NCBI GenBank assembly: GCA_030158485.1
Contig: JAOASS010000004.1
Coordinates: 62,001 to 126,000, forward strand
Reading direction: 5' to 3'
Length of the DNA: 64,000 bases
DNA from: Pseudobdellovibrionaceae bacterium
GTDB taxonomy: Bacteria > Bdellovibrionota > Bdellovibrionia > Bdellovibrionales > Bdellovibrionaceae
Made by a program: the position numbers and the translations under genes. Under the pieces are notes generated by a model. That model had not been told where the DNA came from. It saw only the letters and a list, made by a program, of their open reading frames with translations, and did not search any database. Below are positions 30,637-35,962 of the stretch, one piece after another (within the stretch, counting starts at the first letter, position 1; the number at the start of each line of letters is the position of its first letter).

Positions 30637-30863
30637 GTTGATGTCTTTAACTGAACTAAGTTCAATCTAAAATTCTGTAAAAGTGAGTCTACACTCGCAT
30701 CGGAAGATACCAACCGGTTTGCCAGTCTCTCCAAGTTATTGAATCTTGCATCGTATTAAAAAAATTAAATAATTTTTCCAACTTTTCAGTTTCAGTAAAA
30801 AAATAAAAACTCCGAAAAGAACTTGTAAGCATTGTGCTTTACTTAAACAAAAAGGGAAACCAA

Positions 30864-31367
30864 ATGAAAAACCGCAAATATGCACTTATGATAACAGTTT
30901 TTGCACTTGTTATGTCCACCCAAACCGCAGTTGCTGCAGATGGTACCGGTACTGCAACAGCAACTATTATTGCTCCAATCACAATTACTCCCGTTCTTGA
31001 TTTAGCTTTCGGTAAATTAAGCGCTAATACAGGTGGTACTGTTGTTATCAGTACTGCTGGTGCACGATCTGTTGGGTCAGGTACTGTTGCTCTTGTTAAT
31101 ACTGGTAGCACTCAAAACCAAGCTACATTTGATATCACAGGTGATGGCGTTTCAACTTACGCGATTACATTACCAGGTGCAGCTGCCACAATCACTTCTG
31201 GCGGTGATACAATGTCGGTTGATACTTTTGTGAGTGATCCTGCTGCTACTGGAACTTTGACTGCAGGCGCTCAAACTGTAAACGTTGGAGGCACTTTAAC
31301 AGTTGGTTCAGGACAAGCGACTGGTTCGTACACTGGGACTTTCACCGTCACAGTAGAGTACAACTAA
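30864..31367 (+). CDS. DUF4402 pilin-like subunit (probable major)
   Basis: 167 residues with an N-terminal signal (MKNRKYALMITVFALVMSTQ, cleavage near AVAA). The mature domain has TITPVLDLAFGKLSANTGGT near the front and VGSGQATGSYTGTFTVTVEY at the end, the two diagnostic ends of DUF4402, an Ig-like fold related to chaperone-usher subunits. No Cys. Start ATG 30864 has AAAGGGAAACC. Downstream come a strong terminator, a second DUF4402 gene, a PapD-like chaperone and an usher-like protein. The terminator right after this gene suggests that it is the most abundant product. Confidence 0.85.
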   Translation: MKNRKYALMITVFALVMSTQTAVAADGTGTATATIIAPITITPVLDLAFGKLSANTGGTVVISTAGARSVGSGTVALVNTGSTQNQATFDITGDGVSTYAITLPGAAATITSGGDTMSVDTFVSDPAATGTLTAGAQTVNVGGTLTVGSGQATGSYTGTFTVTVEYN

Positions 31368-31478: not shown

Positions 31479-31937
31479 ATGAAGAAATTTTGGGCAAATT
31501 CAGTGCTAATTGTCTTTTTCATGCTTTTGAGTTTATCATCGTATGCTTTGACTGTAACTTCACTCGCTCAACTCTCTTTCGGAAAAATTGCAGCTAACTC
31601 CGGTGGATCCGTTATCCTGTCGCCTGCAGGTAGCCGCACCCGAACAGGAAGTGTCGCCATACTCACATCTGAAACTGGGTCGGCAGCTCGGTTTCGCTTA
31701 CAAGGAAACGCCGGCCTTGCCTATATCGTAACACTTCCTCTTGATAATGATGTGATATTAACTTCAGGTGGAAACTCAATGAGTCTGACCGATTTCACTA
31801 TAAGTCCTGCGAATCCAGGGAATCTAGATGGAGCAGGAGAGCAAATTATTTCACTAGGTGCGACTCTTAATATTGGATCATTAAAACCCCCAGGAGAATA
31901 CAGTGGCACAATTTCTTTCACAGTCGATTATCAATAA
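31479..31937 (+). CDS. Second DUF4402 pilin-like subunit (probable minor)
   Basis: 152 residues: signal peptide MKKFWANSVLIVFFMLLSLS (cleavage near YA), then LAQLSFGKIAANSGGSVILS and LGATLNIGSLKPPGEYSGTI with SFTVDYQ, again the DUF4402 ends. It is clearly a paralog of the gene at 30864 but diverged. ATG 31479 has only a weak ribosome site. It reads directly into the chaperone gene (18-nt gap). Confidence 0.82.
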   Translation: MKKFWANSVLIVFFMLLSLSSYALTVTSLAQLSFGKIAANSGGSVILSPAGSRTRTGSVAILTSETGSAARFRLQGNAGLAYIVTLPLDNDVILTSGGNSMSLTDFTISPANPGNLDGAGEQIISLGATLNIGSLKPPGEYSGTISFTVDYQ

Positions 31938-31955: not shown

Positions 31956-32798
31956 ATGAAAAAGCAAAATATAAAAAAATACTTTTTATTTACTCTTGTC
32001 TATTTCGCATCTTCTGCGACTTATGCAGCCGCTGGAAGCTTGATGCTCTTTCCAACACGAGCTATATTTAAAAATAATACTCGTGCGATTCAAATCGATT
32101 TAACAAATACGGGGTCAGAACCCGCTTCCTATAGAATTACTTTAGAAAATCGACGAATGACGGAATTGGGGCAATTTATTCCTGCAATTCCTCCCATGCC
32201 CGGAGAATTATCAGCAGACAAAATAATCCAATATTCACCAAGACAAGTTGAGCTTCCTCCTGGCGGAGGACAAACAGTCCGAATTATCCTAAGAAAACCA
32301 GTAGATTTAGCAGTAGGCGAATACCGCACACATATGGTTTTCAATCGTTTGCCAAATCCAAAGGCGAAAAGTCTAGATAACGAAGATAAACAGGAAAGTG
32401 GAATTGGTATCACTCTGACTCCTCTGATTGGGGCTTCTATACCTATTATCGTCGAAAATGGAGAGACAACGGCTAGTACGAGTTTAAAAAACCTCAAATA
32501 TATAAAAGCGAAAAAAAATGAACCTTCACGAATAGAAGTACGTATTGAAAGATCAGGAAATCGTTCAGTTTATGGTGATTTTAAAGTTAAATTTGCACCA
32601 AAAGATGGCGGCGAAAAAGATTTGGCCACTGTGAAAGGAGTTGCTGTTTACGCTCCTTACCCATCACGATTAGCTAAAATCACATTACAAAATGATGAGC
32701 AAAAACCTCTTGTCAATGGGAAATTAGTTGTCGAATTCAGTGAGACTCGAGAAGCCGGGGGGAAAATTCTTTCCGAGACCTCGATTGAAATTCCATAA
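31956..32798 (+). CDS. PapD-like periplasmic chaperone
   Basis: 280 residues with a signal peptide (ending ATYAAA). Two Ig-like domains: LMLFPTRAIFKNNTRAIQID and LTNTGSEPASYRITLENRRM are the first, and the C-terminal part from about 170 is the second. SPRQVELPPGGGQTVRIILR matches the G1-F1 zone of archaic/alternative pilus chaperones (PRxxxLxPGxxQxVR). It would stabilise DUF4402 subunits by strand donation before delivery to the usher. Site AATAGGAATTC before ATG. Confidence 0.88.
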   Translation: MKKQNIKKYFLFTLVYFASSATYAAAGSLMLFPTRAIFKNNTRAIQIDLTNTGSEPASYRITLENRRMTELGQFIPAIPPMPGELSADKIIQYSPRQVELPPGGGQTVRIILRKPVDLAVGEYRTHMVFNRLPNPKAKSLDNEDKQESGIGITLTPLIGASIPIIVENGETTASTSLKNLKYIKAKKNEPSRIEVRIERSGNRSVYGDFKVKFAPKDGGEKDLATVKGVAVYAPYPSRLAKITLQNDEQKPLVNGKLVVEFSETREAGGKILSETSIEIP

Positions 32799-35700
32799 AA
32801 AAATACTGTTATACTCTTTTTTCAATTTTTATTTTTCTTGCTGAGTTTTGCTATTCGGCTAATCCTACAAATAAACTTCTTGATGACCTTCTTCTTTTCG
32901 AAGTTCACCTAGATCGATCAATTTTAGCGCAAGGACTTAACTCCTATCGGGAAGGCTCCTTGATTTTTTTACCACTCGGAGAACTTTCAAGGATTTTAAC
33001 AATTGCGGTTCAAGCAAACTCCGAAGTTAAAACCGCAGAAGGTTTTATTGTAACAGAAGATCGACAATTCTTACTTGATGTCAGTCAGTCAACAGTTGCC
33101 ATCGGAGTACAAAAAACTAACTTTGATCCCAATCTAATTCGCATTCAAGAAAATGAAATTTTTATTGAAAGCACACTTTATCAAAAATGGTTTCCAGTTG
33201 AACTCAGTTTCGACATTCCAGGACTTATGTTGACTGTGACAGCAAAAGAAAACCTACCCATTCAATCAAAAATTGATCGAAGTAAAAAAACAATTTCTGA
33301 AAATGAAACAAGTCATCTTCAATTTATGAACTTTGACACTCCTTACTCAATTCTAGATAAACCTTTCGTAGACCAAACTTTACAACTCAATTCTAATAAA
33401 AAATCAAATTCACAAGTTCAATCATCACTTCAATATACAACACTCTTGTCTGGCGACTTTCTGGGTTTGAAAACCCATTTTATAGCAAATGGTAGTGATC
33501 AGAAAAATTTAGAAAATTACCGATTTAGCATGGGTCGTGACGACCCGGAAGGAAACCTTTTAGGAATCGCAAATGCACGAACTTTTTCTTTTGGTAATGT
33601 CAATTTACCTTCACTGAATTATGTCAATCGTCCGACTTCTTTGGGAAGAGGTGGCTTTATCAGCAATAAGCCCCTCAGTAGACCCAGTCGATATGATTCA
33701 CAAAGCTTTACGGGTGACCTACTTCCTGGTTGGGATGTCGAACTCTTTCAAAATGGTGTTCTCATCGGTTACCAAACATCAAACGATCGAGCTCAATATG
33801 AATTTAATGATCTGCCCCTTTACTTTGGGGGAAATGATTTCAGACTTATCTTCCACGGTCCAACCGGACAAATGAGAGAAGAACGATATCGATTTATGTT
33901 AGAAGACTCAATGGTACTACCAGGTGAAACCTATTATTCGCTCGGCGCAGTACAGTTCGAAGACGGTCGAAAAAGAACTCTGATGCAGATCGACCAAAGC
34001 TTGCTTACACAACTTTCGACAACATTTGGCATTGTCGCAAATGACGTTTCTTCTGTATCAAACGATATCAATACAACGGGTGCGTATCGACCCAACTTAT
34101 CTTATTATAATTTAGGTTTAAGGTCTTACTTAGACTCAGTTTTCTTAAGCGCGGATGGAATTTTAACAAGTGATGAAGGTTCATTAGGCTCACTTTCTCT
34201 TAAAACTGGATTCTGGAATTCATCATTTTCAATTTCTCATGCTGTTTTAGAAAATTTCATAAGCGAAGATTTTCTTCCTTCTGATGATTTGGAAAATGAA
34301 CGATCTAAAGCTCGATTTGATACTTTTGTTTTTAAAATGCCATTTTCATTAGAAGGTACTCGTTCACATTTAACTTCAGGACAAGTCAACTATGATGTCT
34401 CAGCGAAAGTGTCTGCTTATATAAAAAGTATTTCAATTACTCATCGATTAAAATATCTGCATAGCCCAGGACTTAATTCAACTTCCGGTGAACTTCAAGT
34501 TAGCAGTCGTGTTGGTCGATTTCAAATCAGAGGTGGATTAACTTATGAAATAGAACCTATTTCAAGAACGACTTCGATCGATTTAAATGGAAATATTCGC
34601 CTCAATCGGGAGTTTAATTTTACACAAAGTATTTCAAGCCAAATGCAGTCAAATGAATCTCGACTTGAACTTGGTATTAATAAAGAAATTGGCGAATACG
34701 GACTTGGTATTACAACTGGTGGTACAAATTTAGGCGAACAGTTTGTAGGGTTTAGACTGAATATCGGTATTGGTGTTGAGCCCAGAAGATCCAAACTTTA
34801 TACAAGCGCACAGTCGATGGCTACAACAGGAGCCGTTTCTGCCTTAGCTTTTTTAGATCATAATTTAAATGGACAGTGGGACGCTGATGAAGATTTGCTT
34901 CCTGGAGTTGGCTTTAGAGTCGATGGTGGCATGAGTCCCATTCGAACTGAAGACGATGGAGTTGCACTCTTAACACATCTGCCGACAGGACAAAGAATCA
35001 ATATTGGAATTGATCGCAATACAATCGATGATCCACAAGTAAGTCCTTTTATAAAAGGCGTACGGCTTTTACCTCGTCCAGGAAAAATTGCTGAAGTGAA
35101 TTTTCCATTTATCAGAACAACTGAAATAGATGGAATTATTTCAATCGATAACGGTGTAGAAACAAAACCTGCATCTGATATTCAACTTGAACTGGTCGAA
35201 TTTTCCGACAAAGAGCAAGTTGTCAGAGAAACGAGTACAGCTTTCGATGGATATTACATATTAGATGAAGTTCCTCCGGGAAAATATATTTTACGTATTG
35301 AATCTGAACAAGCTGCACGATTGAATATTGCAGTACCGGATTTAAAAGTTTTACGAATTTTACCTCACTCAAATTTTATAAACGGGCTCGACTTTATACT
35401 GAAAAGGTATTCCCAAAAAGCAGACGACGTTATCGAAAACCAACCTCTTCTTATCTCGCCTGAGCTGAATACAGAAATGGAAGATCTTTACTTTGTTATT
35501 CTAGGCTCTTTCGCTCTCGAAAGAAGTTTCGAGCCTCTGACGACGAAACTAGTTCAACTCAAAATTCCTTATGTCGTGAATCAGTTCAGTCGACCTTTAA
35601 AAGTTTTTAGAATACAAACCGAGTTTGAAACCGAAGCTCTTGCGCAAGTTTTCATGGAAACCTTAACAACTTATGAATACTCGTTTGGAAAACAAGAAGA

Positions 35701-35962
35701 CGTCGGTAAAATTAAAATTTTCATAGGACCTTATTATTCCGAAAATGAACTCCAAAAAGAAAAATCCGTCATCACTGCGGCTTTTCCAAACGTGAAAATG
35801 AAAATGACAAGCAATGTTGAATCTCTTGATATGAATGAAATTGCTGTTGGTGGCTTTAACAGCCAAAAAGAGGCCACTGATTTCGCTTCAGTTATCAAAA
35901 AATATAACTTTAATGATATCACAATCCAAAAAAGACCAAACAAACAATGGAAGTCACCTTGA
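32795..35962 (+). CDS. Usher-like outer-membrane protein with C-terminal SPOR-like repeats (apparent ATA start)
   Basis: If started at ATA 32795 the protein is 1055 residues and begins KKYCYTLFSIFIFLAEFCYS, a proper signal peptide with cleavage before NPT. The first canonical start (TTG 32960) would delete the signal, and no ATG, GTG or TTG is in frame between the upstream stop (32786-32788) and it. Then come an N-terminal domain, a plug-like segment (LPGWDVELFQNGVLIGYQTS, FNDLPLYFGGNDF), a long beta-barrel zone, a carboxypeptidase-regulatory-like domain (DGYYILDEVPPGKYILRIE) and, from about 35480, two or three SPOR-like units (YFVILGSFALER; EIAVGGFNSQKEATDFASVI). ATA overlaps the chaperone TAA as ATAA. 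It would secrete the DUF4402 fibre. Confidence 0.75.
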   Translation: MKKYCYTLFSIFIFLAEFCYSANPTNKLLDDLLLFEVHLDRSILAQGLNSYREGSLIFLPLGELSRILTIAVQANSEVKTAEGFIVTEDRQFLLDVSQSTVAIGVQKTNFDPNLIRIQENEIFIESTLYQKWFPVELSFDIPGLMLTVTAKENLPIQSKIDRSKKTISENETSHLQFMNFDTPYSILDKPFVDQTLQLNSNKKSNSQVQSSLQYTTLLSGDFLGLKTHFIANGSDQKNLENYRFSMGRDDPEGNLLGIANARTFSFGNVNLPSLNYVNRPTSLGRGGFISNKPLSRPSRYDSQSFTGDLLPGWDVELFQNGVLIGYQTSNDRAQYEFNDLPLYFGGNDFRLIFHGPTGQMREERYRFMLEDSMVLPGETYYSLGAVQFEDGRKRTLMQIDQSLLTQLSTTFGIVANDVSSVSNDINTTGAYRPNLSYYNLGLRSYLDSVFLSADGILTSDEGSLGSLSLKTGFWNSSFSISHAVLENFISEDFLPSDDLENERSKARFDTFVFKMPFSLEGTRSHLTSGQVNYDVSAKVSAYIKSISITHRLKYLHSPGLNSTSGELQVSSRVGRFQIRGGLTYEIEPISRTTSIDLNGNIRLNREFNFTQSISSQMQSNESRLELGINKEIGEYGLGITTGGTNLGEQFVGFRLNIGIGVEPRRSKLYTSAQSMATTGAVSALAFLDHNLNGQWDADEDLLPGVGFRVDGGMSPIRTEDDGVALLTHLPTGQRINIGIDRNTIDDPQVSPFIKGVRLLPRPGKIAEVNFPFIRTTEIDGIISIDNGVETKPASDIQLELVEFSDKEQVVRETSTAFDGYYILDEVPPGKYILRIESEQAARLNIAVPDLKVLRILPHSNFINGLDFILKRYSQKADDVIENQPLLISPELNTEMEDLYFVILGSFALERSFEPLTTKLVQLKIPYVVNQFSRPLKVFRIQTEFETEALAQVFMETLTTYEYSFGKQEDVGKIKIFIGPYYSENELQKEKSVITAAFPNVKMKMTSNVESLDMNEIAVGGFNSQKEATDFASVIKKYNFNDITIQKRPNKQWKSP

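Follow-up and report, generated by a model that had tools for sequence, protein, structure and literature searches.

Where does translation of the usher gene begin in this Pseudobdellovibrionaceae genome? The stretch of DNA analyzed here (the window) is 64,000 nucleotides long, and the usher frame on its forward strand opens after a TGA at 32786-32788. The next ATG, GTG or TTG in the ORF listing is TTG 32960, which is residue 56 when numbering starts from the ATA at 32795. The frame contains 1057 codons without a stop and is open to the end of the gene (Table 1). The stop codon of the preceding chaperone gene, a TAA, shares two bases with this ATA, so that the two genes would overlap by 4 nt in the -4 register. 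Translation from the ATA gives (M)KKYCYTLFSIFIFLAEFCYS-A, in which two lysines are followed by a hydrophobic core, the normal layout of a signal peptide. The first-pass annotation had described the opening of the frame after the TGA, the two bases shared by ATA and TAA and the lack of an ATG, GTG or TTG ahead of TTG 32960; the first two points are confirmed by the sequence and the third by the ORF listing. It had placed a run of seven A residues at 32798-32804. The run in fact lies one base earlier, at 32797-32803, because the third base of the ATA belongs to it.

Table 1. Features of the putative pilus operon and of the chaperone/usher junction, in window coordinates.
Feature	Coordinates	Strand	Remarks
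DUF4402 pilin-like subunit gene 1	30834..31367	+	ORF as listed; ATG 30864 has a better Shine-Dalgarno sequence
DUF4402 pilin-like subunit gene 2	31479..31937	+	
PapD-like periplasmic chaperone gene	31956..32798	+	PapD_N match at E 0.0015, short of the curated cut-off; homologues upstream of the usher at 61/80 loci
Rival TTG, third frame	32785..32787	+	Would join the usher frame only after loss of one base from the A run or slippage on it
Usher gene	32795..35962	+	1055 codons from ATA, plus stop; predicted FimD/PapC fold, extra C-terminal SPOR-like domain
ATA at the expected usher start site	32795..32797	+	4-nt overlap with the chaperone stop; register as in the starts at 4/61 homologous junctions
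Chaperone TAA stop codon	32796..32798	+	From the sequence
A7 homopolymer	32797..32803	+	From the sequence; codes for two lysines after the ATA
Signal-peptide segment KKYCYTLFSIFIFLAEFCYSA	32798..32860	+	From the translation; model helix 2-18; predicted cleavage position
TTG, first canonical codon in the usher frame	32960..32962	+	Residue 56; rejected as functional start

Neither the window protein nor the 17 members of alignment A3 gave a match to the Pfam Usher profile, and the usher fold was therefore tested by model; a divergent usher can escape this profile. An AlphaFold2 model built from 68 aligned sequences had a mean pLDDT of 80.0. When this model was compared with the PDB using Foldseek, ranks 1-18 were all FimD/PapC (best E 8.6e-28), with identities of about 9-15% in the structural matches. 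With a structural aligner, the best Z score against PapC (7lhh_C) was 20.6 over 543 residues (rmsd 9.2). Judged by its predicted fold, the window protein is a true usher, though a divergent one. Two tandem DUF4402 pilin-like genes and a weakly PapD-like chaperone gene, all with intact frames, lie upstream, and from this combination we read the locus as a divergent chaperone-usher operon. The protein resembles the FimD/PapC ushers in its predicted fold and in having a chaperone gene directly upstream, but it differs from them in its low identity, in the lack of a Pfam Usher match and in its SPOR-like C-terminus. The SPOR-like segment (window 35723-35908, residues 977-1038) is borderline with respect to the Pfam cut-off and was seen in no other of the 17 usher members scanned, those others having been trimmed to their matched region. 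No mention of DUF4402 was found in the set of papers searched.

Relatives of the usher were collected by an alignment scan of genome contigs, which gave 199 sequences, of which 80 loci were kept. Two of these run off a contig end, leaving 78 complete frames, and at 61 of the 80 loci a chaperone homologue was recognizable just upstream of the usher. All of the aligned homologues are distant from the window usher (24-37% identity). Single-protein scans of genome contigs and viral contigs detected no close orthologue, and no usher orthologue was found when viral contigs were scanned with the alignment; across the searches the best identity was about 37%. A plasmid scan with the usher alignment returned 7 distant records. 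Most of the annotated plasmid matches are named 'carboxypeptidase regulatory-like domain-containing protein', and the usher family is thus poorly annotated. The family is patchily distributed: matches to the usher were present in 11 of the 140 genomes of the order, and a search of the class gave 11 matches in 143 genomes, with a genome set nearly identical to that of the order; both counts include the genome studied here. Two genomes of the same genus showed no usher match, and the searches yielded no orthologue from the species or the genus. One genome of the same family (G081) carries an usher fragment of about 49 codons (L013:234-380) that is 57% identical and contains a TGA. No further usher match was present on the 1880 bases examined in that genome, and the fragment is likely to be a relic of the operon. 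In an empty-site comparison within the same genus, the downstream neighbour of the window usher had only a 36% match, in G001. The closest relatives of the usher (L021-L100) are mostly betaproteobacterial, at 33-37% identity, whereas those from the same order are at 18-29%, a pattern that suggests horizontal transfer of the usher.

The first canonical codon, TTG 32960, has a good Shine-Dalgarno sequence (GGGAAGG, -5.9; 37% of genes have one at least as strong), but initiation there would produce a shortened protein from which the signal peptide and part of the N-terminal domain had been deleted. An usher that is not exported cannot reach the outer membrane. The deleted part would include the modelled strands 32-39 and 42-53, the first of the conserved N-terminal domain, in a block with pLDDT of about 88-91. 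Residues 31-55 have a mean identity of 0.27 across the homologues, compared with 0.33 for residues 56-80, and a canonical start lies upstream of residue 31 in all 78 homologues with complete frames. Since residues 31-55 are conserved and carry modelled strands, the start has to lie upstream of TTG 32960. A functional usher cannot credibly begin at this codon, and the probability that translation begins there is very small indeed. The first-pass annotation had likewise recognized the gene as an usher and seen that its signal peptide is complete and would be lost with a start at TTG 32960; both the translation and the predicted fold agree with it. The annotation of the gene would be better begun upstream, most likely at 32795. 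Two in-frame ATT codons, 32825 and 32831, were also considered as starts and rejected; they lack a Shine-Dalgarno sequence and lie inside the hydrophobic core.

Homologous chaperone/usher junctions were then compared with that of the window. At 4 of the 61 junctions the usher start could lie in the same -4 overlap: it is ATG in L061 (CCATGA, where the window has CCATAA), GTG in L089 and L094 (CCGTGA in both) and TTG in L023 (CCTTGA). The chaperone ends with a proline codon followed by the stop in 36 of 62 cases, as it does in the window; with the chaperone end homologous, the window ATA therefore sits where these four starts sit. An alignment of orthologues had been proposed in the first-pass annotation as a check on the start. 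These four junctions bear out the position, but the other 57 of the 61 do not use the overlap, and ATA was found as the usher start in no homologue. In the genome studied here, close same-strand junctions are most often of the -4 type (22 of 84), and all 22 such overlaps end in TGA; the window junction reads ATAA. The same register is found in the ATGA and GTGA pairs described for termination-reinitiation, and a 4-nt overlap is considered suited to restart by the terminating ribosome (PMC6728339, PMC10666635). In those pairs the start is NTG and the stop is therefore TGA, whereas the window combines ATA with TAA. PMC10666635 discusses ATT at -5; no ATA was found in its main text. Taken together, the aligned junctions indicate that 32795 is most likely the usher start site.

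The question is then whether ATA is used there. Shine-Dalgarno energies were calculated with a generic anti-Shine-Dalgarno tail. For ATA 32795 the duplex energy at proper spacing is 0.3, and 82% of genes have a value at least as strong. Over a broader interval the value for the ATA is -3.0; the median of the 22 overlaps is -6.0, and only four of them are this weak. With no well-spaced Shine-Dalgarno sequence at the ATA, any initiation would depend on a ribosome that restarts where it has just terminated, and it would probably be weak. The first-pass reading of ATA 32795 as the start thus holds as to the site, for which it is the best candidate and which the homologous junctions support; productive initiation there would have to do without a correctly spaced Shine-Dalgarno sequence. 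MKK begins only 2 of 61 signal-like genes sampled, so the two lysines after the ATA add little to the case.

Precedents for such a codon exist. AUA starts in Staphylococcus aureus are real for infC, ccpN and citZ; ccpN and citZ were tested, and the output from the tested near-cognate starts was roughly 10% of that from AUG, with ccpN reaching up to 30% in rich medium (PMC13009471). The AUA of citZ occurs only in the NCTC 8325 lineage, and extended Shine-Dalgarno motifs are found at infC, ccpN and cvfC1 (AUU) (PMC13009471). The window junction is similar to infC, ccpN and citZ in that AUA would have replaced AUG, and the lineage limit of citZ resembles a recent change. It is unlike infC and ccpN in that their Shine-Dalgarno motifs are extended, whereas the window ATA has no well-placed one and overlaps an upstream stop. 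In a 64-codon assay, as quoted in PMC10666635, ATT gave only about 0.3% of the ATG value. Other near-cognate starts are the ATT of infC in Escherichia coli, the ATC of infC in Streptomyces and the GTC of sigR (PMC5472188). These IF3-controlled starts share with the proposed AUA start a lower output, but infC and sigR are regulatory genes, which the usher is not. The infC gene of the genome studied here (L125, G000:C13 near 88618-88824, - strand) itself appears to start with ATC behind a full AAGGAGG, with a Shine-Dalgarno energy of -13.3. No paper joining a non-canonical start codon with usher and fimbria was found in the set searched.

Contigs C1, C2 and C4, which comprise 407 kb or one sixth of the genome, were surveyed by codon usage for other genes without a start. 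The 302 gene models were made with a simple codon-usage score and cover 78% of the 407 kb. Among them, the usher shows the longest stretch scored as coding ahead of a first canonical start: 34 codons, as against 22 in the next model. The survey flagged seven models including the usher, and four of the six others were accounted for. One flagged model contains a 10-N assembly gap, another has a GTG start followed by signal-like sequence, and a third is an MlaE permease with an ATG. The fourth, at window 41226, was considered as a second A-run frameshift and is explained by TTG 41295 with a Shine-Dalgarno sequence, AAAGGA, upstream. A further flagged model begins MKLWGGRFEK, which resembles the start of an argininosuccinate lyase. 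No second start-less or displaced-frame gene was established among the 302 models, the flagged model at C4 175722-176390 (- strand) lying outside the check.

The reading that we prefer, tentatively and at somewhat less than an even chance, is that 32795 is the start site, that its codon is now ATA and that it is used in a weak coupled restart. The usher start would lie in the 4-nt stop/start overlap with the chaperone. The ATA would most simply have arisen from an ancestral ATG by one transition, which would also have changed the chaperone stop from TGA to TAA and left the chaperone unharmed. Ribosomes finishing the chaperone may restart in place on AUA with the initiator tRNA. Such a restart would be inefficient and open to rejection by IF3, and the usher, hence pilus assembly, would be present at a low level. 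The same site may instead be a lost start, with the usher in practice not made, whether the cause is a genuine recent mutation, a minor variant of the strain or an error of one base in the consensus. We consider such a loss rather unlikely, but it has several observations in its favour, namely the canonical starts in all 78 complete homologues, the lack of a compensating Shine-Dalgarno sequence at the ATA and signs that the usher family is being lost nearby, where the G081 fragment contains a stop and the two genomes of the same genus have no match. Against it, the frame runs on without a stop for 1000+ further codons, the structural model is good and neither the pilin frames nor the chaperone frame are interrupted; so long an open frame disfavours old decay. 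Consensus errors also appear to be uncommon here, since the survey established no second start-less gene among its 302 models.

A start at TTG 32785 would move the gene into a 14-nt overlap with the chaperone, and would require either an A run one base shorter than that in the assembly or slippage of the polymerase or ribosome on the A7. From this TTG there is no stop ahead of the A run, and K-rich codons lead into the same hydrophobic core. A GAG is present at workable spacing (-3.0), slightly better placed than that of the ATA. In this genome sample TTG starts 27 of the 187 genes whose start lies near the coding onset, three 14-nt overlaps occur in the genome, and in the order-level homologue L002 the first start is a TTG ahead of a signal-like stretch. 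However, an accidental canonical start in such a frame was found within 60 nt for 75 of 186 genes, and the 4-nt overlap, not this one, recurs in four homologous junctions. A run of seven A residues is short for slippage, which counts against the slip route from TTG 32785. No stimulatory RNA structure was predicted at the junction (z -0.50), and no other frameshift-like gene was established among the 302 models. On balance we regard this start as unlikely. A longer A run was rejected, as it would put the usher in the frame of the chaperone, where a stop follows immediately. The first-pass annotation had offered an error in the A run as one alternative to the ATA start. A run one base shorter does make the frame join, but the codon that it joins is TTG 32785 and not an ATG.

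Returning to the preferred weak restart at 32795, a stronger form of it would take ATAA as a working, deliberately weak variant of ATGA, in which in-place restart on AUA needs no Shine-Dalgarno sequence, the chaperone can have a TAA stop and the ratio of chaperone to usher is set high. We think this form unlikely. If it were true, gene finders that are limited to NTG starts would fail to see ATAA and ATAG overlaps.

The absence of a canonical start codon at the head of the usher gene is real and slightly unusual, and sequence alone cannot say whether a weak AUA start or an outright loss is the outcome. Each element is known, the near-cognate AUA start as well as the 4-nt overlap; their combination as ATAA was not found in the passages cited here. 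Since S. aureus already provides examples of AUA starts (PMC13009471), the novelty is modest. If the AUA is not used, the locus would be a clear case of an accessory gene that has lost its start and that gene finders would misannotate as a short protein without a signal peptide. If it is used, near-cognate initiation would extend beyond the few genes for which it is known, and this would suggest that stop-restart overlaps can accommodate non-NTG codons, which standard annotation misses or truncates.
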